Source: Lophium mytilinum
Taxonomy: Eukaryota > Ascomycota > Dothideomycetes > Mytilinidiales > Mytilinidiaceae
Assembly: GCA_010093605.1 (NCBI GenBank)
Contig: MU004190.1
Coordinates: 1,633,599-1,697,598, forward strand
Length of the DNA stretch: 64,000 bases
Direction of reading: 5' to 3'
Part shown: positions 9,656 to 52,758 of the stretch, piece after piece
Numbering within the stretch: position 1 is the stretch's first letter
Layout of the letters: each line of letters begins with the position of its first letter
The notes under the pieces: generated by a model
What the model was told of the DNA's origin: nothing
The model's database searches: none
What the model saw: the letters and a program-made list of their open reading frames with translations, nothing else
Translations under genes and position numbers: made by a program

Positions 9656-11611
9656 TTCTTCTTGTTTCAACCGTAATATGCTACTTCGCTCTCTTTCCAA
9701 GCAGTCTCCATTCTTCTATCCCTTCTTGTTCTCATTGTAACCCAGTCTTCCACTCGTCCCCTTATCTGTATTTAACCGATGCACATCTCGCATACGTGGA
9801 TCCCTGGGGCTCGTTCGAAGGCAGCTCGGAGGTAGATACTGTACCTGTGGCATAAGTTAGTCTCAAAACACTCATGTCTTTGAAAACAACCCCGAGGGCA
9901 TCTGTAATTCTGGGTTCTGAGCATCGCAGCATGTGGATGATGCATGGCAAATATCAAAACTTCTGAGAGCAGCTTAGCATCTCGATTGTTCGCCGGTGAC
10001 GCCAGCACCCTGTTAGTAGACTGGATGAACGTCCCGCACGTTCAGTGATTATTATCGTGCCCAAAGGCGTTCATTGTCTGTTCGAATCCTCGTCTGAGCC
10101 CGTGTGCTTGTCACAGTTTCACCAAGAGCTTTGAGGGGTCTTGCTGGCGTTGCGGGCCGGATTCCACCAGCAGTTTAGTTCGAAATGGGACGCCGAGTCG
10201 TCTGCCTTGACGAAACTTCAAGTTGCTACCCCTACCTGAGTCTGTCAGTTTCCTGACATGCCACATGCCCAGGCTTGCCAAAGCCAATCTAGAGTGACTC
10301 TAAGCCTCGGTGGGTTGGTATTTGTCCCAGGCCCTTTGCGTCTAGGTGTTTCCTGGCTCGAGCCCCACGGGTTCCATAAGGTTTCCCTATTCCAATGTTC
10401 TTCCTGTTGATGCCTGCCGACTTTCCGCTTCGCCTATGACTTTCCGCCTAGACTTAGGCCGCCTGGCGTTTTCCCACTGACAGGGCGTGTCCGATTGTCT
10501 CCAGGAGTATGTTATGACTTGATCTACTTCGTCGTTGTACCACAGTGACGCGTACCCTCCCCAGTAAGAACAACTGCTGGTCTGATTGAAGGACTAGAAC
10601 GTCTGTCTTGGTCGAGGGCCTTCCGAGGGCTCGTGGCGGAGTTTCAAGGTTCGAAGGTTGTTTGCCTCGCCGTCTGCGTTGGGTGCCTGTCTTAAGGAGA
10701 GAAAGGAGCTACTCCTACCAGGTTGTGCCGGGAAGACTGGTCTGATTCAAAAAAGATGAGTTCCTTGACTTAAAAGACAGTACAAGAGCACCTGTTACCA
10801 CCAGTACCAGTATGTTTCCGACGCTTTCGAGGACGCAATCGCTACGAAAACAAGTCCACACTTGTCTCTTCTTGCTGGCCCGGTCCCTGCTTGTTCTAAA
10901 GTTGTCCTTTCGGGATTCCAGACTGTTGCTTCTTCGAGAAGAACACAGGTATCCGTTTGTATGTGCATCAGGGCGAGGGGTGGCCGAAGGCAGGAGGAGG
11001 GAGGAGGAGGCTGGTATGGGAATGCTAAGGCAATCAGCCGGGGGACTCTATGAAGGCTCGAGAGAACCGAGGCCACAGAGAGTTAGCAGATCTCGAAAGA
11101 GCAGATCCCTTGGATAGTCTTGCCTTCATGATGCCTCCTTGTCGCCTCTGTTGACTGGGCGAAGATGGACAGGGACACAATGTTCCCTGCCCGAGGATGC
11201 AGCCTTACTTAAGGCACGTATTGGTGACCTGCCTATCTGTTTCGCCGCTTGTCTCTGTCTCTCATTGTTGCCACGGGAGCACGGAGGCTCAAGGCCGTAG
11301 CAATGTCTCAAGCAAAGTCACTGGTGGCCTAGGTAGCCCGAGAATGAAGAAAGGGGGTGTTTGCATTATGCTACACTATCTAAAGGCTATATAGTGAACA
11401 CAATGAGGGTGATCTCTCAATGCGTTGATGCTGTGACGCTAACTCGGTTGTGCGTGGCTTGCCCTTTTGTTGTGGTCTTCTGTCGCCTTTGCTTCTCCCT
11501 CATCTTCTCTCCATCCTACCCACCACCATCATCACCAACACCACCAGTACTTGCCTATTCACTGCCTCAAGAGCTTCTAGACCTGTTCCAGATCCTCTGC
11601 AGACCGTCAGC
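9656..11611. other. unassigned region upstream of the snoRNA-type locus
   Basis: No ORF longer than about 100 codons has recognisable content. A tRNA B-box-like GTTCGAATCC occurs near 10080, but no cloverleaf forms around it. Polypyrimidine runs begin near 11490-11560. The promoter of the non-coding host transcript that follows is probably within 10.7-11.6 kb (inference only). Confidence 0.35.
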
Positions 11612-12397
11612 GTAAGTCTTCAGGTGCTCTCTGAAGCATCCTGAGCCCGTGGTGTCACTAGCCGGCGAAAAGTCTTCTCCGCCCCTTCTTCACCTCCCTC
11701 ATCCCCAACACCATCTGAAAACTGCTGCACGCCGTCTCAAAGCTTCTACGAGTCCCACTGACCTTCCACAGATGCGTCTTGCAAGTCTTTCGACGCCGTT
11801 TGGCCTCGTGTCGGGGTTTGTGGGCGAGGTGGCCTCCATCGCCACCTCCGCTTCGCACTTGACCAGCCCATCACACCCAGCATCGAAACACCACAGCAAG
11901 CAGTGGCTGTAGCATCTTTCGATACCTCCGAGCCTCCACTAACGTGTGCTGTAAGTCTCTCGGCGTGTTAGGGACCTTTCCTGGCTCTGACGTTTGTGGC
12001 TTCGACCGTGGCTTCTCCGCCCCAGACTCATCCACTTCATCACTAACAACCTCCAGCCACCTCCAGGCACACCTCGCTCAGCACTGTTGATCTCCCGGAG
12101 GCCTCGTTGGCAGGCTGTGCCTCCGCTGTAAGTTTGGAGTTTCTTTGACGGCTCTTTGCCTTGGCGACATCTCACTCTTTTTTCATCAACACCATCCATC
12201 AACACCATCAACACAACAAAGGTCGCTTCGTCCTCAGTGCTTCGAGGCTTCAGCGGTGCTCCGAAGCACAAGTTCTCTCTACCCAGTAAGTGTACAGCTC
12301 TTTCATATTTTTTCAACCTCTTCCCATGCCCACCACAACAACACTTGGGCTGCGTTCTCGAGGGAGTCGTGCTTCACCCACGTCGACTCCTTAAAAA

Positions 12398-12638
12398 CCA
12401 GCGTAGAGTAACAAACATCGCCCGGAGCTTGTTCAGCGGTCGCTTCTTGCTGGACTGAAGCAATGAGAGCTGGGTAAGAACCGTTCGCCAACAGTCCGGT
12501 GTCGAGCGACGCAGGATGGACCACAGCCGCCCGAGGGAGGACCTGGCGGGCAGGATTCGGCTTGGTAACCCGGGTCCGAGTAAGGTTGTAAACGTCGTGA
12601 TTGCCAGTCGCGGCGTAGGTGTCCTTGCTCGTACATCT
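12398..12638 (+). ncRNA. H/ACA-like RNA unit 1
   Basis: The first hairpin is closed by CCAGC/GCTGG. The unit ends GCTCGTACATCT, with an ACA (12633-12635) three nt before the proposed 3' end. The hinge is not a clear ANANNA, so this is one of the weaker units. Confidence 0.4.
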
Positions 12639-12842
12639 CTTGACCCTTCCAGCATTTGTTGTTACCGTTTTGCACATGTCTTTTTGTCCAAGCCTTCGCT
12701 AACTTCATCATCGTAAGGTCCGCTTCCCTCGGCGTCGAAGTTAGGACTGCTTCATGCTATTGCGTCTTAAGAATTGGTACGTTCAAGTCTTTCTTTCAAC
12801 TCTTGTCAGCCACTCTACCCTCCCAGCCCCTCCCATCGTACA

Positions 12843-13115
12843 GGCAAGGTACGGACACTCGAGCCTGGCTCTTTCATAGCCATGAAGCTCTCATGCCTCT
12901 TGCCGAGATCGAACAAACAAGTCGCCGCCATGGTTCCCTGTCCGATCATAGTTCGCCGCAACGCGGTTATTTAGTGTAGTATTGTGCCCCTCGGGGTTAT
13001 GAGCCGGGGCAGCGGCTGTTCTCTTCAACGGCGGCGACGACTGCGGGATAGTTACCCTGGCATCAGCGCTGCTCCGCATTCGATGGCGCCAGTAGGTGGT
13101 CCTAGTCAAACATCT
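12843..13115 (+). ncRNA. H/ACA-like RNA unit 2
   Basis: Hairpin 1: GGCAAG pairs with CTTGCC, with an inner TGGCT/AGCCA stem and apical CTTTCATAG. Hinge GAGATCGAAC. The 3' half has GTTACCCTGGCATCAGCGCT, matching the block shared with units 19-24. ACA at 13110-13112. Confidence 0.6.
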
Positions 13116-13506
13116 TTTGCTAATCTTTCTGCAGGCAGATTCCTCCCTTCGACTTCTCGCGGCACCTCCACAACCTGCTTCCTCCTCTCTTACAACCTCT
13201 TTCGAATGCCGAACGCGGTACGATCATTAGCACTACCTTCTTCTTTAGCCTCAAACGGTTTTTGGCATACGAGCGCGGCTCCTTGAGAACATTCCAAGTG
13301 TCTCCTACAAATACCAAGCACCTGTCGTCACTGGACGAGGAAATGAAAGCAACATGGCATAACATAATGGATGTGGAGTATTTGCGAGATTGAAAGTGTC
13401 TTCGACTTGTAGGTCGGCATCAAATCGAGTTCTGGGGTACTCGGAGCTACTGTCAAGATGGATTCGTCGTCCCCTCTCATTTCGCCATCTTTGGGTTTCA
13501 GCATCA

Positions 13507-13778
13507 GGCAAGAACAGTCGAACGATCTTGGCTTCCTCTTAGCGTGGTTCGAAGATTGCTTTCCAAGAACAAAAAGAAGTCGCCCTCTGGTTCCCGTTCG
13601 CTCGTAGGTCGCTGTCCCTACCTCTGTTGGTGGAGTGTTTGTCTGCAATATTGCGCTGGCGAGGCAGCCCGCGCCTGAAGACAGCTGTAAGAGGGCGACA
13701 GACGCCAAGATAGTCACCCCAGCATCAGCACTGCCTTGCATTTGATGGTGTTGGAAGGCGGTCTTGGCTCGGACATAT
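13507..13778 (+). ncRNA. H/ACA-like RNA unit 3
   Basis: Hairpin 1 has a strong inner TCGAAC/GTTCGA stem and apical CTTCCTCTTAG. The hinge AGAACA (13566-13571) fits ANANNA exactly. The 3' half resembles unit 2 (CAGCATCAGCACTGCCTTGC). It ends GCTCGGACATAT with ACA at 13773-13775. Confidence 0.65.
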
Positions 13779-13962
13779 TTCTTTCGGTTTGGCGATCTCT
13801 TCATCAAATGCACGATTGGTTTCGTGGTTGCTGACAGAAATGCAGACACTAGAGATCTGCTTCCTAGGTAACTGTCATCGGTTCTGTCACAAACCTCATC
13901 ATGGTAAGTTCTTTCCGCTTATTTTTTCCTCTCGTTTTTCCTCGACGATCGCCCTCTTCAAT

Positions 13963-14236
13963 CAGGCACTTCAGCCCACCGAGCCCGACTCTAGTAGCTC
14001 TCGCTCCGGGTATTGTAGGTCAAGATCAAACCAAATCGTCGTGCTCAGCGGGGTGTTGGAAGCAAGTAACCATGGGGCGCAGTCGCGGTCTTGGTCGGTT
14101 ACGCGTACTGGGGCAGAGCAGGGCCTTCCTAGATGGTCACAAGAGCACGTACGAGCGACGGATGAAGGGAGTACCACGGCTTCAGCTGCCTGCTCTGCTA
14201 GAATGGGGTCTGATGGGCGGCCCAACTCGTACATCT
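13963..14236 (+). ncRNA. H/ACA-like RNA unit 4
   Basis: Hinge AGATCA (14023-14028), a 3' half with AGTACCACGGCTTCAGCTGC as in units 2 and 3, and the end ACTCGTACATCT (ACA 14231-14233). The first hairpin is less clear, so the start is approximate. Confidence 0.45.
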
Positions 14237-14570
14237 TTCTCTTTCTGCGATCTCCTTGGCTCTTTTCGATGGGTTCCAGTCGTCCTTGACTTTTGCTAAC
14301 GATTCTTGCAAAAGCACTCCTTCGGGCTATCGGCCTGGATTGCGACTTCCTCAGCACAATTTCCACCTCCTCTCCCAGTTGTGTAGTCTTGTAAGCCTCT
14401 TTCTCATTTCTCTCTTCCACTCCCTCCCATTTTTCTATTGACGTGAATTCGACTTGCTAACTTTGCCAAAGATAATTGCCATTCGAACCTTGCTCTGTGG
14501 CTGAGATCCTGCATATTGTCAGCGCAACTACTGCAGGTACGTTTTTCAGTCTTCTTCTCCTTCCCATTTC

Positions 14571-14644
14571 CCACTGTGATGGTCGTCTTTAAACACCGTG
14601 GTTCTGCCGAGGCTTGATGATATATACACATCTTTCTGAGACCC
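14571..14644 (+). ncRNA. C/D-box snoRNA candidate 1 (intronic)
   Basis: It lies in the intron 14537-14708. Box C-like GTGATGG (14576-14582), degenerate D' (CCGA, 14607-14610), C' TTGATGA (14614-14620) and D CTGA (14636-14639). It aligns with candidate 2 through GAGGCTTGATGA and TTTCTGAGACC, so the two are duplicates. Box C and the terminal stem are weaker here. Confidence 0.5.
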
Positions 14645-14786
14645 GAATCTCTCCGCTATCTCGATTGCAAGCTTTCGAGTGATCAACTAGCTAACTTCTC
14701 ATCAGCAGTGACGACCAGGTAAATATAGGGATGCCCTCAATCCACTACAAGTACGTTCTCCGATCTCTTTTGCTCTTTCCCAACAT

Positions 14787-14860
14787 CCGGAAATGATGAT
14801 TTTGTATATTGAAATTTCTCATGCTGAGGCCTGATGACACACACTACTTTCTGAGACCGG
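14787..14860 (+). ncRNA. C/D-box snoRNA candidate 2 (intronic)
   Basis: This is the best C/D unit: box C ATGATGA (14793-14799), D' CTGA (14824-14827), C' TGATGA (14832-14837) and D CTGA (14851-14854), in correct order. A CCGG/CCGG terminal stem brackets C and D. It is inside intron 14751-14925 (GTACGT donor, CTAAC branch, CCAG acceptor). Possible guide segments lie directly upstream of D' (ATTGAAATTTCTCATG) and D (CACACACTACTTT). Targets cannot be assigned by eye. Confidence 0.75.
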
Positions 14861-15084
14861 ACTTGTCGCTCATTTTCATTTGCTGCTCTTTGAATGAAGA
14901 TCCCGCTAACTCTTGAAAAAACCAGGAATCATCATTCCTTGTGAGGTGGCTGTGGGCCAATTCTTCTTTACCTCTGCACTGTTTCACCCATCGTGACGGT
15001 GGGCAGAGTCTCGGAGGGACTCAAGTCTACCGCAGGTACGTTTATTGACCGTTTTGCTTTCTTCATTCTCCCATTCTCCCATCC

Positions 15085-15150
15085 TCCAACTATGATGATT
15101 CTTCGAGGCTGTTGCTGAAACATGATGATTCTCGATTCTCTGAACCTGCG
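15085..15150 (+). ncRNA. C/D-box snoRNA candidate 3 (intronic)
   Basis: Box C ATGATGA (15092-15098), D' CTGA (15115-15118), C' ATGATGA (15122-15128), D CTGA (15140-15143), after a GTACGT donor at 15036. All four boxes match consensus. The terminal stem is weak by eye, and the acceptor is uncertain (TTCCAG near 15172 or TTAG near 15213). Confidence 0.65.
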
Positions 15151-15357
15151 ATTCTGCGACCTACTTTTCCAGACAATCTTTGCGCGGTCTTGGGCTAATG
15201 CGTGAGAAGTTAGGGATCTTGACATTCGACATCTTTGAAATGTGTGCGCTTTCGCTCTTTTGTCGACTGCATTTAAATGGTACATGGCATATCCTCTCCG
15301 ATGGCACCTTCTCCACCCATTCCACTCCATCCGATATCTCCGGTGCTCTCCAGAAAA

Positions 15358-15618
15358 CGGCATCGCACCGTCGATCGTGGTCGGCTTCTCCATAGCCTTC
15401 TACAGGCCAGGGTGCCGGAGATCAACGAAAGGCTGCGTAGGTAGTAGAAGAGGACCGGTCGCGAGATTCGTTTCTCAGCAGAGCCCGTCGGACCTGCGCG
15501 CGGTCGTGACGCTGGAGCAATACCTTCATTCAGGGTTTAAAACTAAGGATGATCATGCACCCTCCCATGGATGAATCGAGAAGATTTACCCTGCCGGTGG
15601 CTCCAAGCTCATACATCT
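15358..15618 (+). ncRNA. H/ACA-like RNA unit 5
   Basis: CGGCA/TGCCG closing stem, apical GGCTTCTCCATAGCC, hinge AGATCA (15419-15424), internal GTGACGCTGGAGCAATACC and end AGCTCATACATCT (ACA 15613-15615). Confidence 0.65.
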
Positions 15619-15885
15619 CCCTTTTTTTTGTCAAGATTTCTCTCATTTCGCCCACTTCGATTGGCGTCTCTTCGAACATTGACAGACAATGACACTAACC
15701 ACACAATAGTACGTCTTTACCGACAGTGCTCTCCGGGAATCTTCGAAAAGCTGAATGTGAACATCGAGGATGAGGATTATGGTATCAATATCGACCTCTT
15801 GGCCCTCTGAATCCGCTTTGCTTCTCTTCTTCTCCCTTTCCGATAAATCATTCCTTCCTCCTCTGACCACTAGGCCGCATTTGCA

Positions 15886-16162
15886 GGCACGCCCGTATCA
15901 CACCGAAGCAGCTTCCTCATAGCCTTCTTCACGTGGGGCGTGCCGAGATCAAATTTGTCGCATGCAGTGGCGACGGGTCGACTACTCGAATGATTGGGAC
16001 AGCAGGCCATGACGAGGTTCGTAAGGAGCCCTGAGCCCTGCATGTTGACGTGACGCTGGGGCTTACTACGTCTCCCCTGCTGCTGTGGAGATCTGGAATG
16101 GCAAAAGAGAAGATGTTGCAAACCGCCACCAGTATTAGTTGGTCGCCTCAGCTCATACATAT
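15886..16162 (+). ncRNA. H/ACA-like RNA unit 6
   Basis: A perfect 8-bp stem, GGCACGCC (15886-15893) with GGCGTGCC (15937-15944), and apical AGCTTCCTCATAGC. Hinge AGATCA (15946-15951) fits ANANNA. Second hairpin base GGCGAC/GTCGCC. ACA at 16157-16159. One of the cleanest units. Confidence 0.7.
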
Positions 16163-16323
16163 TTTCAAGGTTGGTTACTCTTCTTAGTGCTTTGATCCAA
16201 GCTTATCTTCCCTTCTTCTTTCTTTTCTTCTTCTTTTTGTTTCCTAGAGTATACGCCCAAGAATCAATCTTTTCCCGTTTCTTTCTCTTCTTGGGCAGTT
16301 GAATTCCCTCATTGAGATGCTCA

Positions 16324-16613
16324 GACACCGCCTTTACTCCGAACCCAGCTTCCTCCTCATAGCTCCGTTCCAGTAAACGGTGCCAAGATGGAGCTAGTCG
16401 CTCACAGTGGCACGCGGTCGACGATGGCATCGGAGCGGGAAGTAGGCCTAGGGTGTTTTGTCTGTCGGCCCCGAGACTTAGAGCTTCGTAAGAGCCTTCC
16501 ATGCCCTGTGAGTCGACGTGACGCCAGATGCTACCGCACCTTCCCTACTCTTCGTGGAGGCCTACCTGTTTCAGTTCACTTCACGGTAAGACGGGCTTCT
16601 GGCTCATACATCC
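16324..16613 (+). ncRNA. H/ACA-like RNA unit 7
   Basis: CACCG/CGGTG closing stem extended by TTTAC/GTAAA, apical AGCTTCCTCCTCATAGCT, hinge AAGATGGAG, end GGCTCATACATCC (ACA 16608-16610). It is a close relative of units 8 and 9 (shared GAAGTAGGCCTAGG, ACTTAGAGCTTCGTA and GACGTGACGCCAGA). Confidence 0.65.
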
Positions 16614-16666
16614 TTTCGCGTGTTTTCCTCTTTCTTCTCATGTCTCTTCTAGAGGTGATGTGCTCA

Positions 16667-16951
16667 GACACCGCCGCACTCCCGAACCCAGCTTCCTCAT
16701 AGCTCCGTTCAAGTGGGCGGTGCCAAGATGGAGCTAGTCATTCGCAGCGGCGCAGGGTCGATGATGGTCTCGGAGCGGGAGGTAGGCCTAGGGGTTTGCC
16801 TAGCGACCCTAAGACTCAGAGCTTCGTAAGAGCCCCAGTGGCCCTGTGAGTTGACGTGACGCCAGATGATACCACACCTTCCCTACTCGCTGTGGAGGCG
16901 TGAGCGAGTAAACGTCACAATTAAGCAACTGGTATTCTGGCTCATACATCT
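16667..16951 (+). ncRNA. H/ACA-like RNA unit 8
   Basis: Stem CACCGCC/GGCGGTG, apical AGCTTCCTCATAGCT, hinge AAGATGGAG, end GGCTCATACATCT (ACA 16946-16948). Tandem duplicate of units 7 and 9. Confidence 0.65.
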
Positions 16952-17017
16952 TTCCGCCTCTCTCTCTCTTTCTCTCTCTCTTTTTCTTCTCATGTGACTT
17001 CCAGTGGTCATGTGCTC

Positions 17018-17298
17018 GGCACCGCCTCACTCCCGAACCCAGCTTTTCATAGCTCCGTTCAGATGCGCGGCGCCAAAATTGATCTAGTCGCTTGCAGTGG
17101 CACGGGATCGACGATGGCATCAGAGCGGGAAGTAGGCCTAGGGAGTTCTGAAAGTCGCCCGAGACTTAGAGCTTCGTATGGAATTCCAGTTGCCCTGTGA
17201 GTTGACGTGACGCCAGAAGCTACCACACCTTCCCTGCTCTTTGTGGAGGCGTGAGCAATGTTTACCCACCGGCAAGTGGTATTCTGGCTCATACATAC
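17018..17298 (+). ncRNA. H/ACA-like RNA unit 9
   Basis: GGCACCGC/GCGGCGCC stem with one mismatch, apical AGCTTTTCATAGCT, hinge AAAATTGATC, end GGCTCATACATAC (ACA 17293-17295). Tandem duplicate of units 7 and 8. Confidence 0.65.
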
Positions 17299-17507
17299 TA
17301 CAACACCGATTCGATCTTGGAGAGAACCCGTTTTCGGATCTGCCGTTGGTGAGTTTGTGGGGTTTTCTTGGACGAGCGGGCCTGACTTCGTATCTAGGTC
17401 GTATCAACATCACACGAATGTCTGATGTTGGGTGATAGCTGCGTGTTTCTCGTTCATGTTCTCTTTCTTACGCCGTTCTTGCTCGGCAAGACATCTCGTT
17501 CACAGCT

Positions 17508-17633
17508 TGACGTATTCGGCAGTCAGGCGTGGTCGACGCTACTTCCTCATAGCCGCGGCGTGGGCAATCCTCAGACTCTTGGTACCACCGTGCAGAATCC
17601 CTGGCCTTGTGGGTAACCTAGATGCTCACATTC
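17508..17633 (+). ncRNA. H/ACA-like RNA unit 10 (degenerate or partial)
   Basis: It keeps the apical CTACTTCCTCATAG block and the ending GATGCTCACATTC (ACA 17628-17630), but the GGCAC-type closing stem and hinge are not evident. It may be a decayed copy. Confidence 0.3.
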
Positions 17634-17765
17634 CGTCGCCCCGAGAACGACTGGAAAGGCCAGCAGCTGGACTCGGAGAACAACGCTGGACTGATGAGTA
17701 AGTTTTCCAAACTCTTCCTTTCCATCCCCTTCATTCTTTTCACGCCCTAAATCGTCTCAAACCCC

Positions 17766-17949
17766 GGCACCGCCATCTCTATACGCCGACTACCCAATAG
17801 TCGTGCGCCGGCTGGCGGTGCCAAGAGGAAAACCATCGGCCTGCGTTGTACTTGACCATTGCCGCAGTGGCTGCGTTCTCTTGACGCGCAAGACCATGAC
17901 GCTGGCCTAACCCAACTCCCCTGCACCGCAAGGCCCAGCTCAAACATCT
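17766..17949 (+). ncRNA. H/ACA-like RNA unit 11
   Basis: A compact 184-nt form. Perfect 9-bp stem GGCACCGCC/GGCGGTGCC, apical GACTACCCAATAGTC, hinge AGAGGA (ANANNA). Second hairpin base GGCCTGCG paired with CGCAAGGCC. Ends AGCTCAAACATCT (ACA 17944-17946). Near-identical to unit 12. It follows a GTAAGT donor at 17698 and precedes CTGAC plus a CCAG acceptor near 18020. Confidence 0.7.
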
Positions 17950-18052
17950 TTCTTCCTGTGGGCTTTCCATTGCTTCATCCTGAAAGTTTGACGGAGAGAC
18001 TGACTCAAAAGCAAATCCAGATTCTTGAATGTTTCTATTTTTCTGGAATCCT

Positions 18053-18236
18053 GGCACCGCCGTCTCTATGCGCCGACTTCCTCATAGTCGTGTGCCGGCT
18101 GGTGGTGCCAAGAGCGAAACCATCGGCCTGCGTTGTACTTGACAATTGCCGCAGTGGCTGCGATCTCTTGACGCGCAGGACCGTGACGCTGGCCTAACCC
18201 AACTCCCCTGCACCGCAAGGCCCAGCTCAAACATAT
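18053..18236 (+). ncRNA. H/ACA-like RNA unit 12
   Basis: A 184-nt duplicate of unit 11. The closing stem is kept through a G-U pair (GGCACCGCC/GGTGGTGCC). Apical GACTTCCTCATAGTC, hinge AAGAGCGAAACC, end AGCTCAAACATAT (ACA 18231-18233). Confidence 0.7.
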
Positions 18237-18444
18237 CGACTCTCTAGGAATTTTCACTGCTTAAGTATAAGAGCAGGCAGAGAGACAAACTTAATACTAG
18301 GTCCTGATGAAAAGGCGATTGAAGGTCCTCTCAAAGTCTCACACAGCTAAGCAAGTTTTCTCTTCTTCAGCTCCACAGCTCCACAGCCCACTCAACTTCT
18401 CGACATCCGGTTCTGCGCGTCAAGACGAACTCTTCCAACATCCG

Positions 18445-18670
18445 GCCCCATTCTCTTCATCCGAGCCGGCTTCTTCATAGTCGTGCTTTCGATAGCGGGG
18501 CGAAGAGTGAACTGTATCGTGGTTGATGTCCGACGTGTTTCTGGCTGGCGTCTGAGACATCTTCCCGTGCAGGTCTACCGACGCTGAGCACTACCTCGAC
18601 TCCGACTAGATGGAGAATGGAGCTGACGCACTTGTGGCAGCGGTCAAATGGACGCTCAGCTCAGACATCT
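18445..18670 (+). ncRNA. H/ACA-like RNA unit 13
   Basis: GCCCC/GGGGC stem, apical GGCTTCTTCATAGTC, hinge AAGAGTGAAC, internal CTACCTCGACTCCGACTAG and GAATGGAG, end AGCTCAGACATCT (ACA 18665-18667). Confidence 0.6.
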
Positions 18671-18875
18671 TTACTACCCACCCTTGTTTACATCTTCGAA
18701 ACGACGGAATAGCGAAGCTGACAGTTGTTGTAGGTTTTAGGACGCAAAACCAAGTGTTCAGGTCTTGGAGCAGATCTTCGAGAGCTAGCTCTGAGGGGAG
18801 CGCAGCATGGAGTCCCATTTGATGTAAGCTTTCCTGCATCTTGTCTTTCTCCTTCGTCAAGAACCACCCCATGTC

Positions 18876-19107
18876 GGCACCGCTCCCTCCCTCCGAGTCG
18901 ACTTCCTCGTAGTCGCATGCTCTCGGGAAGCGGTGCCAAAACTGATTTCCGACCTGCGTTGTGGAGCGGGCCACCGCCATGCGGTTCTCAAGAGCCTTTT
19001 ATCCCTCGTGGTGTCTATGACGCTGGTGCAATACCCGACTCCGGATGTAATCAATGGAGAATCGGACTTGAGTTAAAGTGTATTATGGACGCCCAGCTCA
19101 CACATCT
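18876..19107 (+). ncRNA. H/ACA-like RNA unit 14
   Basis: GGCACCGCT/AGCGGTGCC stem, apical GACTTCCTCGTAGTC, internal GACGCTGGTGCAATACCCGA and ATCAATGGAG, end GCCCAGCTCACACATCTC (ACA 19102-19104). It follows a GTAAGC donor at 18824. Confidence 0.65.
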
Positions 19108-19290
19108 CTCTTTTCTAGGCATAGCTGCTTCTTCAGGGCTCAGGGATAGAAGTCGGGAGGCTGACAAGGTGAGTAGGCTCTGGTAATTCGTTGCAGCCCG
19201 AAAGCAGTGTAAGTCTTCCTCCGTCTCTTCCAATTCCTCGGCGTGGCTATCTTTCCATTTCCTCTTCAAAATCCAATCTTCACGTCCCTC

Positions 19291-19534
19291 GGCACCGCTT
19301 CCTCACAGCCGTTTTACTCATAGCCGTGTTCGCTCGGAGCGGAGCCAAGATTGAGAAGCTTCTCGCGTTGTGGCGGAGGGTCGCCTCGCAGAAGAAACTT
19401 GCGTGGAGCCGGAACCCTCTTGGCCCTCGCAGCGAACTTGACGCTGGTGCATGAACCCGACTCCAGAGATGATCCATGAAGTATCGGAATCTTATCTTAC
19501 GGCCTCCAACGATGGACGCCCAGCTCAGACATCT
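19291..19534 (+). ncRNA. H/ACA-like RNA unit 15
   Basis: GGCACCGCT stem pairing with AGCGGAGCC (one mismatch), apical TTTTACTCATAGC, hinge AAGATTGAG, internal TTGACGCTGGTGCATGAACC, end GCCCAGCTCAGACATCTT (ACA 19529-19531). It lies between a GTAAGT donor (19209) and CTGAC (19578-19582). Confidence 0.65.
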
Positions 19535-19742
19535 TCCATCAATCCTCGCCCTTTGCGAAAAGAGTGATGAGCTCAAGCTGACGAGGAGAAGAGGTTCCGA
19601 GGTTCCGATGAGCGTGTGATGAGAGATAGGATACTCCGCTGGTCGGCAACGATGCTCTTGCAAAGACACAGGTGAGCCGAATTTCTTGCGCATCTTCAAA
19701 CGCATCTTCTACCCAACCGCACCTTTTTTTTCCAACGCTTCC

Positions 19743-20010
19743 GGCACTGCCAATATTCCGAGCCAGCTTCCACATAGCTATGCTCTCAATGGCAGCGCCA
19801 AGATTGATATTGTCATCGTGTGTGGCGGAGAGCTCCACTAGCTAGCTACTAGTTGGAGGCTCTCTTACCCCTCACGATGATGTGACGCTGAGGCAAGTTC
19901 CACGACTCCGATAGCACGACCAATGGTCGAGAACTGCACTAGCTATCATATCAATGGAGGATCGTGATATTGATGCGCATGGCCCCCTGGACGCCCAGAC
20001 TCATACATAT
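19743..20010 (+). ncRNA. H/ACA-like RNA unit 16
   Basis: It sits in intron 19672-20053 (GTGAGC, CTGAC, CAG). Stem GGCACTGCCA with TGGCAGCGCC (19790-19799), apical AGCTTCCACATAGCT, hinge AAGATTGATA, internal CACGACTCCGATAGCA and ATCAATGGAGGATCG, end CAGACTCATACATAT (ACA 20005-20007). Confidence 0.7.
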
Positions 20011-20120
20011 TCTACCGGTGCAACTTTCAGACTGAAGCTGACGACTCGAGCAGAAACCTCACGCGCAAAGTAACTATTCCCATCTCTTTTCTTACTCTCA
20101 ACCACTCTCCTTCGACCTTA

Positions 20121-20380
20121 GGCACTGTCAACATTCTGAGCCAGCTTCCTCATAGCTATGCTCTCAATGGCAGTGCCAAGATCAATGTTATCATCGTGTG
20201 TGGCGGAGAGCTCCACTAGCTACTAGCTGGAGGCTCTCTTACCCCTCACGATGATGTGACGCTGAGGCAAGTTCCGCGACTCCGATAGCATCGACCTTGG
20301 TCGAAGAGTGGCTAGCTATCATCAAATGGAGGATCGGGAAAGAAGATTTGCATACCATGGACGCCCAGACTCATACATAT
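20121..20380 (+). ncRNA. H/ACA-like RNA unit 17
   Basis: It sits in intron 20070-20424. Stem GGCACTGTCA with TGGCAGTGCC (20168-20177), apical AGCTTCCTCATAGCT, hinge AGATCA. The 3' hairpin base GTGTGGCG pairs with CGCCCAGAC. ACA at 20375-20377. It differs from units 16 and 18 by pair-preserving changes. Confidence 0.75.
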
Positions 20381-20510
20381 TCCGCCAGTGCAACCTTTTA
20401 CGTTGAAGCTGACGAATGAAGCAGAACTCCATTGCGCACCGTAGCAATGCTCCCAAAGTATGTATCCCCTTCTCTTTTCGTTCTCTTCCAGCCTCTTTTC
20501 TGAGCCTTTC

Positions 20511-20774
20511 GGCACTGTCAACATCCGAGCCAGCTTCCTCGTAGCTATGCTCTCAATGACGGTGCCAAGATCAAAAGATATTACACGCGTGTGGCGGAGG
20601 AGCTCCACTAGGTGGAAACCGTCTTAGCCCTCGCGGTGATGTGACGCTGAGGCAAGTACCCCGACTCCGATAGCAGAGACCCTGTCCGAAATGAAACAAC
20701 AAATAGCTATCAAATGGAGGATCGGGCGACCCAAGGAGGTCAGGATTTTCATGGACGCCCAGACTCATACATAT
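20511..20774 (+). ncRNA. H/ACA-like RNA unit 18
   Basis: It sits in intron 20458-20836. Stem GGCACTGTCA with TGACGGTGCC (20557-20566), inner GAGC/GCTC and AGC/GCT pairs around TTCCTCGTA, leaving an asymmetric internal loop like a pseudouridylation pocket. Hinge AGATCA, 3' hairpin base GTGTGGCG/CGCCCAGAC, ACA at 20769-20771. Confidence 0.75.
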
Positions 20775-21447
20775 CCCATCAATGCAACTGCTTTTGCAGA
20801 TCATAAAGACAACGTTGGAGCTGACGAATCGAGCAGAAATCCAGATGCTGAAGACAGTGGCAGTTCGGGGAGCGTTTCGCCTTCTTCGCTTCTCCTGAAA
20901 GGTTTTTGTTCTCTCCGGAATACCCGTTCGGCGCGCTCCACACCGCCGATGCGGCGTTCTTGTCACGGCTCAGATGCCATGAAAAGGATACGAGTGGACT
21001 CTTCAGCCTACATTGAGGCGTCCATTGAGCTAATGAGTATGTTTCAACTCGACGAATAGGTTGCGAATGGGTGCTGACTTTTCGTACTCTGTATTTAGAG
21101 AGACGGTATCTGGAGCCAAGAAGGAAGGTAGGTGCAGGTGCGCGATGAGAAGTTGCTTGCCGGTTTGGACGCTTGCTGATCTGAAAGCGTAGGAAGCAAT
21201 CAGTAGCACTGTCAACAAACATTTTCATGCCCCCAGTCACTGCGATCCAGCTCGGCATTCCAGGCTCTTTCAAGACTCTTTTTCTGTCTCAAATACCTTT
21301 TGTCCTGGAGCTTAGTCGATTTTCGTCGATGGCTCGTCTTTCCACTCGAATTTCACCACCGCGGTACCCTAGCACCATCGTGGCACCGTTCAATGACCTC
21401 AATCTACTCATGGCAATATCTACCATGATCAAGCTACTGGTTCCAAC

Positions 21448-21751
21448 GGCACGCGCAGCCGAGAATGTCGGCTCCGGCAATGGCAGCTTCGACTTGTGCA
21501 CGCCAAGATTGATAACATCGTTCTCGCTAGTGGGTCGCCTCTCTCGGGAGGTGGGCGTCTCTCGAGAGGAAGGTTGGATTAAACATAAAATCGATGTCAC
21601 GCGCCCCCGTTCGAGGGCCACCTCATGCACGGGGGTGTAAAACGCAGCCGTAATCGGAAAAAAGCGAGACCGAGCGGGATTTGAAGTTACCACGTCTTCA
21701 GCACTGCATCGGCTTGATGGAGACGGTGAAGGTATTCTGACCCGTACATAT
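21448..21751 (+). ncRNA. H/ACA-like RNA unit 19 (second subfamily)
   Basis: GGCACGCGC start, GGCTCCGGCAATGGC apical part, CACGCC closing arm, hinge AAGATTGATAACA (contains ATAACA). The subfamily block GGGATTTGAAGTTACCACG is present. Ends TGACCCGTACATAT (ACA 21746-21748). A GTGAGT donor follows at 21860. Confidence 0.65.
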
Positions 21752-21911
21752 TCTTTCGGTCGCAAGCTGCATAGCCAGCCTAGTCTGGAGCTTCGAGACC
21801 AGATCACGAAGGGGCTGTATGAAGTAGATGAAGAAAGAGCTGGAGGATCAAAAGTTCTGGTGAGTGTTGGTTTCAGCCTCCCCGTCATGGATTCCCTCCA
21901 AATCGGACCAC

Positions 21912-22212
21912 GGCACGCGCTAGTCGAGTATGTCTGCTCCGGCCATGGCATTCTGGACTTTTTTCCGGCGCACGCCAAGATGGATGATTCGTTCTCGCTG
22001 ATGGGTAGTTCGTTAATGGGCTGTTGGATTTGAGTTCAGTAAAAGTTTTACCCAATTGCCCAGTGCAGTGGTACCTCCGTAATCGGATGTCGTCAGAACT
22101 CAACGAGCAAGACTCGGGTGACAAGCGAGGACGAGCGGGATTTGAAGTTACCACGTCTTTAGCACTGCATCTGCTTGATGGAGATGGTGAAGGTGTTCTG
22201 ACCCGTACATGC
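21912..22212 (+). ncRNA. H/ACA-like RNA unit 20 (second subfamily)
   Basis: GGCACGCGC start, GCGCACGCC closing arm, hinge AAGATGGATGA, shared CCCAGTGCAGTGG and GGGATTTGAAGTTACCACG blocks, end TGACCCGTACATGC (ACA 22207-22209). Confidence 0.65.
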
Positions 22213-22353
22213 CCTGTCGATCACAGGCTGCCTGGCCTAGCGCTAGAGCTTCGAGGCCAGAGACCGGATTGCTAACGAGGCGTCAAGCTAGATGAGAAAG
22301 AGCTGGAAGATCAGAGGTGCCGGCATTACCTTGGCCTTCGAGTCGAACCTCAC

Positions 22354-22653
22354 GACACGCGCCGGTCGGGTACGTCTGCTTCGGCCGTGGCGTCCTCGAC
22401 CGTTTCCGCGCACGCCAAGATCGAGAATTCGCCCTCGTCGGTGGGCAGTTGGATTTGAGTTATGCAGGCAGCGAAGCGACCGAGACCCGAAGGTCCAGTG
22501 CAGTGGTATTTCCGTAATCGGAAGTTGTCAAAACTCAACGAGCATGCCTCGTCTCAGACAACAAGCGAGGGCGAGCTGGATTTGAAGTTACCACGGACTC
22601 AGCGCTGCACAGCCATCAATGGAGCCGGTGAACGTATTCTGACCCGTATATAT
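22354..22653 (+). ncRNA. H/ACA-like RNA unit 21 (second subfamily, altered ACA box)
   Basis: GACACGCGC start, CTTCGGCCGTGGC apical part, GCGCACGCC arm, hinge AAGATCGAG, shared CCAGTGCAGTGG and GGATTTGAAGTTACCACG blocks. At the expected box the sequence reads ATA (22648-22650) instead of ACA. AUA is a tolerated variant in some H/ACA RNAs. Confidence 0.55.
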
Positions 22654-22778
22654 CACCCTATTCTCTCGGCCACGGAGTCTTGGGCCTAGCGCCGATGCTT
22701 CGAGGCTGAACTACTAATTTCCACAGATGCGCCGGCAGAAGGAGTCGCGGGAGGAGAATGGCGATCGACACGAAACCA

Positions 22779-23070
22779 GGCACGCGCTAGTCGAGTGTGT
22801 CTGCTACGGCAGTGGCATCCTCAATTCGCAAGCCAAGATTGATAGGTCGCCCTCGCTGGTGGGATATTGGATTTGAGTGGGAGTGGATTAATTGCGATGG
22901 AGTCACCCAGTGCAGTGGGTAGATCAACCGTAATCGGAAGTTGTCAATTACCCCACGAGCATGGCGAGACTCGGACAACAAGCGAGGGCGAACGGGATTT
23001 GAAGTTACCACGGATCCAGCGCTGCACAGCCTTCAATGGAGCCGGTGAAGGTGTTCTGACCCGTACATAC
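22779..23070 (+). ncRNA. H/ACA-like RNA unit 22 (second subfamily)
   Basis: GGCACGCGC start, hinge AAGATTGATAGG, shared GGATTTGAAGTTACCACG and CATGGCGAGACTCGG blocks, ACA at 23065-23067. A TACTAAC branch site (23123-23129) and TTACAG acceptor follow. Confidence 0.65.
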
Positions 23071-23164
23071 TTCTTTTCGACCTCGAAGTCACCAGCTAGG
23101 CAACGGCGCCTCGGGGTTGAGCTACTAACCCCTTACAGATACGGTCAACCAGAGGCATAACCGC

Positions 23165-23448
23165 GGCACGCGATATTTGACTTGTCTGCTTCGGCGGTGG
23201 CATACTCAACATACGCACGCCAAGATTGATAGTTCGTTCTCGCTGGTGGGCTGTTCGTTCTCGCTGGTGGGCTGTTGGACGCGGCAAGACTCAACACGGG
23301 GAAGCACCCCAGTGCAGTGGGAGACGAACCGTAACCGGAAGTCGGTTTCGGTAACGACAACGCGAGGACGAGCGGGATTTGAAGTTACCACGTACTCAGC
23401 ACTGCAACGCATGATGGGGACGGTGGAGGTGTTCTGACCCGTACATCT
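23165..23448 (+). ncRNA. H/ACA-like RNA unit 23 (second subfamily)
   Basis: GGCACGCGA start, GCTTCGGCGGTGGC apical part, CGCACGCC arm, hinge AAGATTGATAG, an exact internal 21-bp duplication (23232-23252 and 23253-23273), shared GGATTTGAAGTTACCACG block and ACA at 23443-23445. Only 26 nt separate it from the upstream acceptor, with no visible donor. Confidence 0.6.
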
Positions 23449-23569
23449 CTCGCTACGGAAATGCCGGGCCTGGTGTTGGCCCTTCGATGCTAGCTTGCTA
23501 ATCATTCGCGCCTACGCGACGGTGGATTTCAGACCTGCGATTCTCCGCTCAGGCTGGTATTAGTCTCAC

Positions 23570-23892
23570 GGCACGCACCGATTGAGTATGCGGCTCCGGC
23601 GATGGCATCCTCGATTTGCACAAGGCGCACGCCAAGATCGATCATTTTTCTCTGCTAGTGGGCTCCGGGGGGTGAGTTCCAGCGGGTTAGCATAAGGGAG
23701 TCGGCAGTTCCACACAGACCACTGGACACCCAGTGCAGGGGGATAAGATCCGTAATCGGAAGTCGTGCGGAACTCGGTGGGTTGATGGCTTTTTTGACGA
23801 CGAAGGCGGAGACGAGCGGGATTTGAAGTTACCACGGATTCAGCGCTGCACCGCGTAATGGAGCCGGTGAAGGTTTCCTGACCCGAACATGT
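23570..23892 (+). ncRNA. H/ACA-like RNA unit 24 (second subfamily)
   Basis: GGCACGCAC start, GCTCCGGCGATGGC apical part, GCGCACGCC arm, hinge AAGATCGATCA, shared GGATTTGAAGTTACCACG block, end TGACCCGAACATGT (ACA 23887-23889). Last unit seen. Confidence 0.6.
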
Positions 23893-24768
23893 TCTATCGC
23901 GTTGAATGCGATGGTGTTGATGCTGAGGGACGTTGGAGGTTAGGATAAGGTTGGAGTTGAGTATGTTAGCGTTTACCGTTCCGAATTCCTTTTGCTGGTT
24001 AGATCAATGCTTACGTACTGACGTCCCAGCTTCAAGGGGCGTCTTAGATCCTTGACTACCTCCCCACGACCTATGCTAGAGTAGATTTGATTCTGGGTAT
24101 TTATCGAATAGATCTGTCAACCTTGTCAGCTTCCCCGTCCAAATGTTATGCGCAACTTTCGGTCCGCTTTCGCTCTGCCCGATATTATGACGCCCACCAA
24201 TCATAGATCTAAAGAACGTTGTATGTCCTTTGAAAGGTGGCGGGCTTCATCGGGGGTCCCTCCAATGGCGTGGTATTGCGCGCTTGATGCTGGGCTATGG
24301 CCCATTGTCATCCAATCCCGCGGAGGTTTGCGGTCCAAAGGTGTGTCAATTATCCTGCTCCTCGCTGATCCACAGATTCCCGTTCCGTATTTTCCCCTCT
24401 CCCTCCCTCGATGGCATGCTTCACGCAGTCATCCAGTCAGTCAATAGTCTAGGTAATTCGGTCTGATTTGAAGCGGTTATCCAAAGAAACTCCCTCTTCG
24501 GCCCTCCCCTCGTTCGATCAGCATGCTCCAAACCACACCAAACTCTTTACAGCTTTTCCCGACCCTCATAGAGCTGGAGATTATATCAGCTTTGCAACAC
24601 AAAGGGCACTTCGCTGAAGCATACTGTTCCATATCCGATATCCTCCAATGATCAACCGCACGCGCGCAGAGTCAGACACACCAAGGTAGCTCGCAGCCCT
24701 GGACTTCCGCGCAAGAACGTCGCTAGGCTCGGCTGATATAGAAACTACCACGATGTAGTAGGATTCGC
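23893..24768. other. no supported gene downstream of the RNA cluster
   Basis: This presumably holds the 3' end of the host transcript. The 60-100-codon ORFs here (for example 24148-24447, plus) show no domain or splice pattern that would justify a call. Confidence 0.4.
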
Positions 24769-25005
24769 TCAAGAGCGCCGCCGTAGCAAGAGGTGGAAGT
24801 AGATGACGGCTAGGAGGATGGCGATGGGGAGGAGGACAGCGAGGTAGGACGGCGCGGCAGGGGCGGACTTCTTCATCTCGTCCAGGCAGGGCGCAAAGGT
24901 ACCGTCGGCGTTCCGCATGATGAAGAATTCGGGTGTCTTTGTGATGAGAGCTCCGCTGGTGTCGACCGCGCGGGACGCTGGATGGCGGCAGAAGATGGCG
25001 GGCAT
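24769..25005 (-). CDS. hypothetical tail-anchored-type small protein, 78 aa
   Basis: A single open frame from an ATG at 25005 to a TGA at 24769-24771. The N-terminal 45 residues are hydrophilic (GALITKTPEFFIMRNADG). A hydrophobic span near the end (YLAVLLPIAILLAVIYFHLL) is followed by RRRS, the topology of a tail-anchored or type II single-span protein. No family is recognised. The clean amphipathic layout is better than chance ORFs nearby, but there is no independent support. Confidence 0.45.
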   Translation of the reverse strand: MPAIFCRHPASRAVDTSGALITKTPEFFIMRNADGTFAPCLDEMKKSAPAAPSYLAVLLPIAILLAVIYFHLLLRRRS

Positions 25006-25321
25006 GGTGGAAGCTTTGAAGATTGTGGAAGAGGGAGTAAGCTGACCTCAGGAGAAGGGTTGAAGTATGGGCAATATGAGTGTTCTTTTACAATCAGTCT
25101 CACAGCTGGCTGCTGACCTTGAAGCCCTCATTTTCGAGGGAAGGGTCTCGCTAGGAAAGGCTTAGCGCCAATTTCCACCGCACGATACAAAAAGCTTCTC
25201 GTCGCCTCCCCTCCTTCTCTCCTACAAGGCGATCCGCCCGTCAATTGCGCACGGCGCCTGCGTCTGAAGAGAGTCATCCATAGCCTCCTCTCACCATTCA
25301 CGACATTGATTTTTGTACATT

Positions 25322-25555
25322 ATGGCTTTGCCCGTTTGGTGTCGGAACATATTGAACTTCTTGAGCTGTGGACCGGGAGTGGCCTTTCTACTGCCCATCT
25401 TCCTGGTTCACTACGGCTCATACATACTATTCGGACAGCAATATACTGGCGAGAACTACCGCGTTTGGGCTATGACGCCATGCGCTGAGTGGTGCAGAAT
25501 TGTTGTGAACCCTCAAGTAGCTTGTAAGATGTTATTACCTCTCAGGTGTATATGA
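25322..25555 (+). CDS. possible small membrane protein, 77 aa
   Basis: It starts MALPVWCRNILNFLSCGPGV with a hydrophobic segment at about 20-38 (VAFLLPIFLVHYGSYILF), then a Cys-containing part (MTPCAEWCRIVVNPQVA). A GTAAGA after the NPQVA region may be a donor, so the last residues could differ. Nothing is recognised. It may be chance. Confidence 0.3.
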   Translation: MALPVWCRNILNFLSCGPGVAFLLPIFLVHYGSYILFGQQYTGENYRVWAMTPCAEWCRIVVNPQVACKMLLPLRCI

Positions 25556-25609
25556 GGGCAGAGCGGATGAGGAGGAGATAAAGAAGAAATGCACACCTCC
25601 CGTGTCTCC

Positions 25610-25850
25610 ATACAGTACTAGGCCATAAGTCTGGGCATAAGAACTGATTTCTGCTTGGCTCTGAGTTGCTCACTTGACACCACTGTTGGGGATAGCCTGG
25701 TTGCTAAGTAGTTAGTTAGTAAAGAGATAGTCTAATCTGTAATGCTTGAAACTTAATCTTGCTGTTAGATCTAGGGAGTCTTGTGGGGTACCCCAAGCAG
25801 TGGTGAATCAGGGTGCCTAGACTTGTAGCCTATCACTGTAATAGAGGGCC
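25610..25850 (+). repeat. dispersed SINE-like repeat, copy 4
   Basis: It starts ACAGTACTAGGCC and runs through CTCACTTGACACCACTGTTG, GATAGCCTGGTTGCTAAGTA, AGTCTAATCTGTAATGCTTG and CCCCAAGCAGTGGTGAATCA to CCTATCACTGTAATAGAGGG. It has more C-to-T type change than copy 5. Confidence 0.7.
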
Positions 25851-26944
25851 CTGCGGAGGAGTAGGCGGGGAGGAGGGGGCTGCTGTGGGGTGGGTTCTGG
25901 ATGCTGCTCCCGTGCTATTTGCCGTAGTGGAGGATAAGCTGGGCCGCCTCATGCCCATGCAAGCTGTTTCTCTGCTGATACAAAGTTCTGTGTGCTATTA
26001 TTTGAAGTGGCTGGCTCTACGCTGTCCTGTGATGATGATTTTGGAAGTATCAGTCAGCGAAGTCGATATTGGATAGACGGAGCCTCCTGTCCTGATGCCC
26101 ATATGCGACCGTTTGAGATGCTCTAATACGTCGTCAATATTTCACTGGAATTGAGTATTTCGCGGTTTGGTCTTGATCTCGCTGATGGCGAGTAATCTAA
26201 CACCCCTGCGTTTCCCTAAGATCGTCAGATGAGTCCTAGCTGTTGATCTCTTCTTCTATATATTGCAAAATCCATGCCGCCGTCGGAGGGGCCCCAGCTG
26301 TGCGCAGCAATGACGAAAGAAACAACCGTCTTCATGATTGGGCGCACGCTATCACATCACCATACTTCTAGCTCTTACTAGAGCACGGGTGCAAAGGCTC
26401 TCGATCTCAGTAATACTGCACGGCGCGCAACGGTTGAAGTTAGTTGCACTAATGCAGATTTCTTGGGCTTGCAATCTCTTTGGATGGCCTGACTCGCGCA
26501 TACTTCGACCTTTAGTTGGAGCATGTCGAAAGGGGTATTCAGGATTGTGATAGCTTTCAATACACATATTTCTTTCCATATTTAAGAGCATTTCGCATGC
26601 GTTTGAAGAAGTAATGCATATATTGCGATAGCATAATTTGAGATGTAAGTGCGCCCGCGGCGTAGATCAGGCACACCAAAGCGGTGATGTTTATGTGCGT
26701 CTGAAGGCTTTCTGAACCGGAAGCGTTTCTAGAACGCTCAAGTCGAAGCGTATTTGCAGACAATCGATCTGCTTTCGGACTACTAGGCCTTCGCTAGACA
26801 TAGCTAGTTATGAGGTAGAGAGATGCAATGATGGTACACGCGGAGCAATGATAGGCGGTTTCCAAATTCTGGCATAAATGGACGAGTTTGAGGTAACTAC
26901 CTTCCTCTGATATGTGCGTGTGAGAGAATGCTGGTGGAATTGCG
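25851..26944. other. no supported gene
   Basis: Unique sequence between two SINE-like copies. Only short ORFs of up to 87 codons, without domains. Confidence 0.4.
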
Positions 26945-49243: not shown

Positions 49244-49255
49244 GATCAGGGCTAC

Positions 49256-49299
49256 CCTTTAATCACTGAATTGCCCCGTTAATTAATAGTGATTAAAGG
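49256..49299. repeat. 12-bp perfect inverted repeat at the block edge
   Basis: CCTTTAATCACT (49256-49267) and AGTGATTAAAGG (49288-49299) are perfect reverse complements separated by 20 nt, just inside the AT-rich border. It may be an element terminus or a chance hairpin. Confidence 0.5.
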
Positions 49300-52031: not shown

Positions 52032-52211
52032 TATTAGGGCTTAAAGATATATAGAGAAATAGGCTTATATTTAAGAGTAATAAGAATATAAAGTTAAGAA
52101 AAAAAGAATAGAGATATAGAGGTATAGAGGTATAGATATAGATAGCTTAGCCTAGGCCTATATATCTCTATAGTATAGCTTATATAATAGTATACTTAAA
52201 TATATAGCTAT
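52032..52211. repeat. left LTR of the small LTR element
   Basis: A 180-bp direct repeat partner of 60679-60860. The two copies are closely similar along their full length. Confidence 0.75.
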
Positions 52212-52758
52212 AATATATCTTTCCTCTCTAAAGAAGCCCCCCTCTCTTTTCTTCTAGCTAGGTATCTAGCTATAATAAACTATAATAATATATAAACTAG
52301 AGAGTCCTCCCTTTTATCTATATAGGCCTAGTAGCTATAGTATTATTATACTAGATAAAATAGGCGAGTTAAATATATTTAAATTAATATTAAGTAGTAA
52401 GGCTTATAGCTTATAGCTTATAGCTAGGGCTAAATTAATAATTAGCGTTACCTCTAATATATAGCTAAACTATATACTAATTTTCTTTCTAGGCCTAGCA
52501 TAATAAACCGGCTATAATAGAGCTAGATAGAGCTATATAGTATACTATATTTTCTTCTATTATTATAATTATAGTAAGAATTATAGCTAATATAGTATTA
52601 TATGCGCAGGCGTAGGCGTAGTTATAGGTATAGTATAGGCGTAGGTATAGATATAGATATAGATAGATATATAGAAATTAAATAAGAATTATTAAAAGGC
52701 TTAAGCTATAGATAGATATAGCCTATAGCACGGCTATAGCTTTAAAAATAGTAGCTAG

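Follow-up and report, generated by a model that had tools for sequence, protein, structure and literature searches.

A 64,000-nt window of the genome of Lophium mytilinum, a Dothideomycete (contig C10, 1633599-1697598; genome of 43.18 Mb in 24 contigs), contains an array of 23 related units of 184-322 nt, all on the plus strand at positions 12330-23892 (Table 1; coordinates given without a contig label are positions within the window). The locus is probably a non-coding host of small nucleolar RNAs (snoRNAs), carrying 23 paralogous H/ACA-class and three C/D-type RNAs, most of them predicted to come from spliced introns and to be bound by H/ACA proteins. The units have in common their homology, strand, conserved structure, box positions and pocket spacing, and paralogs of them are dispersed in the genome. 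We regard them as an expanded H/ACA-class family because of their compensatory changes, their pocket-to-box spacing and these dispersed paralogs.

ACA follows the 3' stem in 22 of the 23 units, the exception being U20 with AUA, and direct repeats connect many of them. Units U5 to U17 (n = 13) constitute family A, with a common 5' hairpin whose loop is like CUUCCUCAUAG and a 3' part that starts with GACGC, while U18 to U23 (n = 6) constitute family B and can be aligned across their full length. All 19 run from a 5' hairpin through an H-like box and an extra middle domain to a 3' hairpin with an ACA-type end. U1 to U4 are more diverged, with a two-hairpin layout based on fold and homology (for U1 and U3 the start positions are approximate); U2 and U3 have the 3' pocket in common with family B. 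Using a family-A covariance model built from 13 array units (R1), matches at E ≤ 1 in the 64-kb window were confined to the array and to the plus strand. At E ≤ 5, the model returned 24 matches between 11000 and 24500, all on the plus strand, of which 23 were in the array and one was weak and outside it (11143-11170, E 0.27). A loop-only piece at 17542 (R1 E 0.57) was not counted as a unit, and no unit was found at 11612-12300, where GTAAGT donors are present. A preliminary description of this DNA had proposed 24 units on one strand, each with a hairpin, a hinge, a second folded half and ACA. R1 bears out the single strand, and the tandem related units, hairpins and ACA-type ends were recovered, but the count is 23, the 24th unit was not confirmed and the extra middle domain of families A and B departs from the proposed layout.

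Substitutions in both families follow the predicted pairing. Among the 13 family-A 5' hairpins, aligned without structure, 82.9% of cells were in standard pairs and two-sided changes numbered 27 compared to 8.8 in shuffles (0/500); pairing fell to 22.7-44.4% when the partner was slid by one to three columns (22.7% and 34.3% for one column). For 23 R1 matches from the window and locus L002, in an alignment fitted to the structure, there were 50 two-sided cells compared to 15.6 in shuffles. The six full family-B units paired in 93.9% of cells, with 16 two-sided changes compared to 6.3 (0/500) and an unremarkable number of further pair types (49/500 shuffles). Among 15 3' hairpins of family B, taken from four places, upper-stem pair 22-51 was UA nine times, CG three times and GC three times, and two-sided cells numbered 7 compared to 1.2; just 2 of the 12 pairs vary in this way, the others being near-constant. 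We also applied an alignment-free test in which the 5' arm of one unit was paired with the 3' arm of another (20,000 permutations; U1 to U4 left out, and the start of the 3' hairpin of U12 misplaced). In family A, true partners were best for the 5' hairpin, domain 2 and the 3' hairpin (0/20,000 each).

Box positions and pocket spacing are also largely kept in the units measured. Eleven of the 13 family-A units have 16 nt between the top of the 5' upper stem and the H site, one has 17 nt and one 19 nt; the top pair is formed in 11 of 13 (unformed in U5 and U13). A distance of 16 nt was also read by eye for the pocket of U1, and the pseudouridylation pocket rule, as given in the available part of PMC2780460, is 14-16 nt from H or ACA. 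An ANANNA H site was found by eye in 12 of the 17 copies outside the array. In families A and B the middle domain lies between the H site and the 3' hairpin and is closed by a long stem, giving three domains.

At least 17 further copies occur outside the array, on C4, C5 and C13, for a total of at least 40 genome-wide. This total is a lower bound, as part of the genome was scanned with R1 and DNA searches missed family-A copies. Five of the 17, all on C4 and absent from the R1 training set, were full-length R1 matches at E ≤ 0.001 (E 6.7e-10 to 1.3e-5); this family-A model scored the copies of family B, and the U2 and U4 paralogs, lower. Copies inside each array are same-stranded and, with few exceptions, ACA-ended. 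From the DNA searches, family A had seemed restricted to the array, a view abandoned after the covariance model turned up three of its units near C4:258.4-259.3 kb. SUB2 introns were also rejected as the location of the U2 and U4 paralogs on C4: an intact SUB2 lies elsewhere on C4 (near 1535 kb), and neither BLAST nor R1 found a unit in that gene, the sole match being 35 nt to U5 (E 4.6e-4). Between two units, at about C4:430.1-430.5 kb (L017), is a SUB2 fragment of ~360 nt (83%, exon-intron-exon).

Two side observations were made outside the array. A segment of 18S rRNA (RF01960 1502-1604) is inserted in the middle domain of one C5 unit of family B, at about C5:1122825-1122927 (L015, minus strand, 4326-4428). 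A 28-nt core of the U6 small nuclear RNA (snRNA) has five exact matches, every one on C4 at 143-427 kb and three of them within ~3 kb of an H/ACA unit (L014, L017 and L059); four more matches, with one or two mismatches, are on C1, C16 and C19, and a U2 snRNA match at L014:8683-8849 is borderline (46.6 bits, cut-off 46). C4:143-427 kb looks like an RNA-gene-rich region.

About half of the units are followed by branch and acceptor signals. A branch-like GCTRAY with an AG after it was found ≤110 nt downstream in 11 of the 23; the background rate was 6.0% for 20,000 window positions outside the array and 3.0% for the minus strand of the array. For a looser branch-plus-AG form the figures were 15 of 23 units, 22.6% and 18.5%. 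The best intron case is U2, whose intron is conserved from donor to acceptor, at 83%, in the C4 copy. Such signals back the predicted location in introns for roughly half of the units only, and the locus is a probable non-coding host with intronic units, for which we infer splicing. Four open reading frames (ORFs) of the locus, 163-228 aa in length, had no Pfam match at E ≤ 0.1, and of two that were searched for relatives, one had none and the other had none beyond L. mytilinum. The preliminary description had interleaved the units with donors, branch sites and acceptors and seen no credible protein. Its branch sites and acceptors hold up better than its donors (9/23 units compared to a 22.4% background), and the ORFs tested contain no Pfam or conserved protein, but one annotated hypothetical protein lies antisense to U18.

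Three box C/D-type units lie between U4 and U5. Across both strands of the window, the full C-D'-C'-D pattern occurs in CD2 and CD3 only, and it was absent from the other loci scanned (L001 and L037 were excluded, as both duplicate the array). Comparison of the C/D guide regions with a partial eukaryotic large-subunit (LSU) rRNA gave at most 11 contiguous pairs including G-U, which is uninformative, and yielded no target for these units.

In the mechanism we propose, a host transcript would carry the units and most would be released from spliced introns, after which the RNAs would be bound by Cbf5, Nhp2, Nop10 and Gar1 and would act as guides or in rRNA processing. The array would have grown from one ancestral H/ACA RNA through local tandem duplication, with units at times moved as entire introns. 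Transcription, splicing, ribonucleoprotein assembly and a single ancestor of all units are predictions from sequence features. The locus had first been described as a tandem expansion of one H/ACA RNA in a non-coding host; the one-strand expansion as a tandem H/ACA-class array, the covariation and the lack of a conserved protein agree with that, but the locus comprises two subfamilies, four diverged units and three C/D-type units, and the family is also present on C4, C5 and C13.

Conservation of the guide pocket suggests what the family-B RNAs might do. Their left pocket arm, GUUAC, does not vary among the 15 copies, ten of which have AAGGU(G/A) as the right arm; the other five have close variants (AAGGUU in two, GAGGUG in two and AACGUA in one). 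Because the pocket is near-constant while a pair in the stem above it changes compensatorily, the copies seem to share one target and are probably many copies of one guide for one target RNA, rather than guides for many targets. For family B and U2, the target predicted from the pocket is 5'-CACCU(U/A)-U-N-GUAACU. A search for the family-B motif in viral contigs gave 0 matches. A possible but less likely reading is that the genome-wide family is an orphan one of ~40 or more copies, with a middle domain, two invariant 3'-hairpin elements and a common pocket, which would be dosage-multiplied in arrays and serve one non-rRNA target or pre-rRNA processing.

Several observations weigh against the interpretation as an intron-borne H/ACA array. 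A strict ANANNA H box is present at 7 of 22 array sites (U3 unscored), the others being mostly AGAUNGA; the family-B 3' upper stem ends 17 nt from ACA in all 14 ACA-bearing copies, one beyond the usual distance; and the middle domain is foreign to the standard H/ACA class. In the arm-swapping test, family B alone was not significant (11,672, 1,400 and 3,329 of 20,000), a result that six such similar units could be expected to give. Rfam gave no match at the gathering threshold in the window, and at E ≤ 5 in 10000-26000 it gave weak C/D and chance matches only, with no H/ACA family among them. We scanned for targets with 10 pockets each against a partial LSU rRNA from another eukaryote, two U6, one U2 and a short small-subunit (SSU) piece, and none of their sites scored above shuffled guides except in the uninformative poly-U tail of U6. 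GTRNGT donors ≤160 nt upstream of the units (9 of 23, compared to 22.4% of background positions and 13.7% on the minus strand of the array) are at best weakly enriched, and U7 to U9 and U10 to U11 are spaced too tightly for a clear exon between them. Finally, a minus-strand ORF at 21289-21975 is part of the annotated hypothetical protein BU16DRAFT_540168 (277 aa) that is antisense to U18.

With regard to the rRNA used in the scan, internal transcribed spacer 1 (ITS1)-side and 5.8S queries matched nothing in the assembly, so that the organism's own rDNA seems absent from it. The partial LSU sequence came from JABSRU010000113.1 (L049), which is filed as a gammaproteobacterial metagenome-assembled genome and is eukaryotic LSU rRNA, apparently a contamination.

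The likeliest of the alternatives is an H/ACA-class family without a role in rRNA modification, acting in pre-rRNA processing or on other RNAs through its 3'-hairpin motifs. U17/snR30 is such a long H/ACA RNA, with conserved 3'-hairpin motifs and, in yeast, an extra internal hairpin. Across 18 aligned 3' hairpins, two elements show little or no variation, the pocket AGUUACC / AGGU and the apical CAGCnCUGC..AUG; such constancy beyond the pocket is unusual for a plain guide. Both the extra middle domain and the lack of a modification target in the limited LSU, U6, U2 and SSU scan are consistent with a role of this kind. Against this, the m1 and m2 motifs of U17/snR30 are not seen in the array family, which has far more copies than U17/snR30, and the Rfam model of U17/snR30 had no gathering match in the window or 12 loci and none at E ≤ 5 in 10000-26000. 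We consider such a role possible but doubtful.

It is unlikely that the array is mostly in decay, a set of snoRNA pseudogenes from tandem or intron duplication among which few are functional. The missing ACA of U20, the H sites other than ANANNA in 15 of the 22 array units scored, the 18S rRNA insert in one C5 copy and the loop-only remnant at 17542 would fit such decay, whereas the compensatory changes across units and the GUUAC pocket arm, unchanged in all 15 family-B copies, indicate that many copies are under selection at the RNA level. We give still less credence to a different repeat, such as a short interspersed or other mobile element or another structured RNA, that merely resembles H/ACA. 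Dispersal to C4, C5 and C13 besides C10, the middle domain and the imperfect H boxes might suggest this; the single strand within each array, the ACA ends with few exceptions, the pocket-to-H spacing kept in family A and the position of the window copies among splice signals and C/D-type units argue otherwise. That the locus is protein-coding, as a gene or gene family whose folds arose by coincidence, is highly improbable despite the annotated 277-aa protein overlapping U18 on the minus strand, given that substitutions track RNA pairing and that the ORFs lack Pfam matches (four) and relatives beyond L. mytilinum (two).

Table 1. Units of the array, probable introns, box C/D-like units and copies elsewhere in the genome
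Feature	Position	Strand	Copies	Basis or remark
U1 H/ACA-like unit	12330..12638	+		fold and ACA; 3' hairpin GAGUAAGG/CCUUGCUC, pocket UUGUAA/AGGUGU
U2 unit	12842..13115	+		R1 match, ACA; entire intron 83% identical to that on C4
U3 unit, start approximate	13504..13778	+		3' hairpin akin to U2; weak R1 match, E 1.7
U4 unit	13963..14236	+		R1 match; 76% identical to C4 unit
U5 unit, family A	15361..15618	+		R1 match, two-sided changes, swapped-arm test
U6 unit, family A	15888..16162	+		R1 match, two-sided changes, swapped-arm test
U7 unit, family A	16324..16613	+		R1 match, two-sided changes, swapped-arm test
U8 unit, family A	16667..16951	+		R1 match, two-sided changes, swapped-arm test
U9 unit, family A	17018..17298	+		R1 match, two-sided changes, swapped-arm test
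U10 unit, family A, short middle domain	17766..17949	+		R1 match, two-sided changes, swapped-arm test
U11 unit, family A	18053..18236	+		86% tandem copy of U10; R1 match, swapped-arm test
U12 unit, family A	18446..18670	+		R1 match, two-sided changes
U13 unit, family A	18876..19107	+		R1 match, two-sided changes, swapped-arm test
U14 unit, family A	19291..19534	+		R1 match, two-sided changes, swapped-arm test
U15 unit, family A	19743..20010	+		86% identical to U16; R1 match, swapped-arm test
U16 unit, family A	20121..20380	+		R1 match, swapped-arm test
U17 unit, family A	20511..20774	+		77% identical to U16; R1 match, swapped-arm test
U18 unit, family B	21448..21751	+		full-length family-B alignment, two-sided changes
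U19 unit, family B	21912..22212	+		full-length family-B alignment, two-sided changes
U20 unit, family B, AUA instead of ACA	22354..22653	+		full-length family-B alignment, two-sided changes
U21 unit, family B	22779..23070	+		full-length family-B alignment, two-sided changes
U22 unit, family B	23166..23448	+		full-length family-B alignment, two-sided changes
U23 unit, family B	23571..23892	+		full-length family-B alignment, two-sided changes
Probable intron around U2	12777..13134	+		GTACGT donor, GCTAATCTTTCTGCAG branch/acceptor; kept in C4 copy
Probable intron around U17	20458..20836	+		GTATGT donor, GCTGACGAATCGAGCAG
CD1, box C/D-like	14576..14639	+		GTGATGG .. TGATGA .. CTGA; box set incomplete, full pattern unmet
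CD2, box C/D-like	14793..14854	+		C, D', C', D; weak SNORD52 match, E 0.23
CD3, box C/D-like	15092..15143	+		C, D', C', D
Family-B copies	C4:268.6-271.1 kb (approx.)		6	
Family-B copies	C5:1122.5-1123.6 kb (approx.)		2	
Family-B copy	C13:1531.3-1531.5 kb (approx.)		1	
Units on C4	C4:428.0-430.8 kb (approx.)		4	U2 and U4 paralogs flanking SUB2 fragment; two more partly by eye
Family-A units	C4:258.4-259.3 kb (approx.)		3	covariance model
Further unit	C4:140.7 kb		1	covariance model

Elsewhere in the window, the HET-domain protein encoded at 2456-4012 matches an L. mytilinum protein with 100% identity along the entire query. Positions 49000-64000 are AT-rich (22-32% GC) with indices like those of repeat-induced point mutation (RIP), TA/AT being 1.71 and (CA+TG)/(AC+GT) 0.13; the same indices are 0.68 and 1.2 in the array region.

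Neurospora crassa has 20 H/ACA snoRNAs of 136-309 nt, several of them orphans (PMC2780460), which resemble the present units in their hairpin-H-hairpin-ACA class and large sizes. According to the available part of that paper, 16 of the 20 are intergenic, two are intronic and most snoRNA genes are singletons, whereas here 23 tandem paralogs occupy one locus and 17 copies lie beyond it. The accessible text of PMC11028025 likewise treats most fungal snoRNAs as independent intergenic genes. Intronic H/ACA RNAs of filamentous fungi do exist, such as Pezizomycotina structure 04 (mean 177 nt), which the portion of PMC8216456 at hand locates to a gene for a vacuolar sorting protein; with 505 sequences from 465 genomes, that RNA has about one copy per genome, unlike the many copies found here. 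Fungal polycistronic C/D hosts are described, in the source text available, as non-coding, with several introns each containing a snoRNA and with exons small or missing. The present locus resembles such UHG/gas5-like clusters in its probable non-coding host and the apparently intronic position of its RNAs, but they hold different C/D RNAs conserved among fungi, whereas here it is mainly one H/ACA-class RNA that was copied. In mammals, C/D families form large tandem repeats of up to hundreds of copies in imprinted domains (PMC11028025, in the part available), and SNORD113/114 and SNORD115/116 are like the array, to the extent that this text covers them, in that one snoRNA family has expanded locally in tandem within a non-coding host, a probable one here; they differ in being imprinted and of the C/D class, rather than H/ACA and fungal. 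No fungal H/ACA array of this kind appeared in the titles and abstract openings of the literature searched, and an earlier description is possible.

Together with its dispersed duplicates and compensatory changes, this fungal H/ACA array is a natural experiment in guide-RNA multiplication. It bears on the intron-borne spread of guide RNAs to new sites, intronic snoRNAs being known to move in fungi (PMC3596301, available part), and on the survival of repeats beside a strong RIP-like signature. If the family is indeed a dosage-multiplied orphan, it would be a fungal H/ACA counterpart of SNORD115/116.

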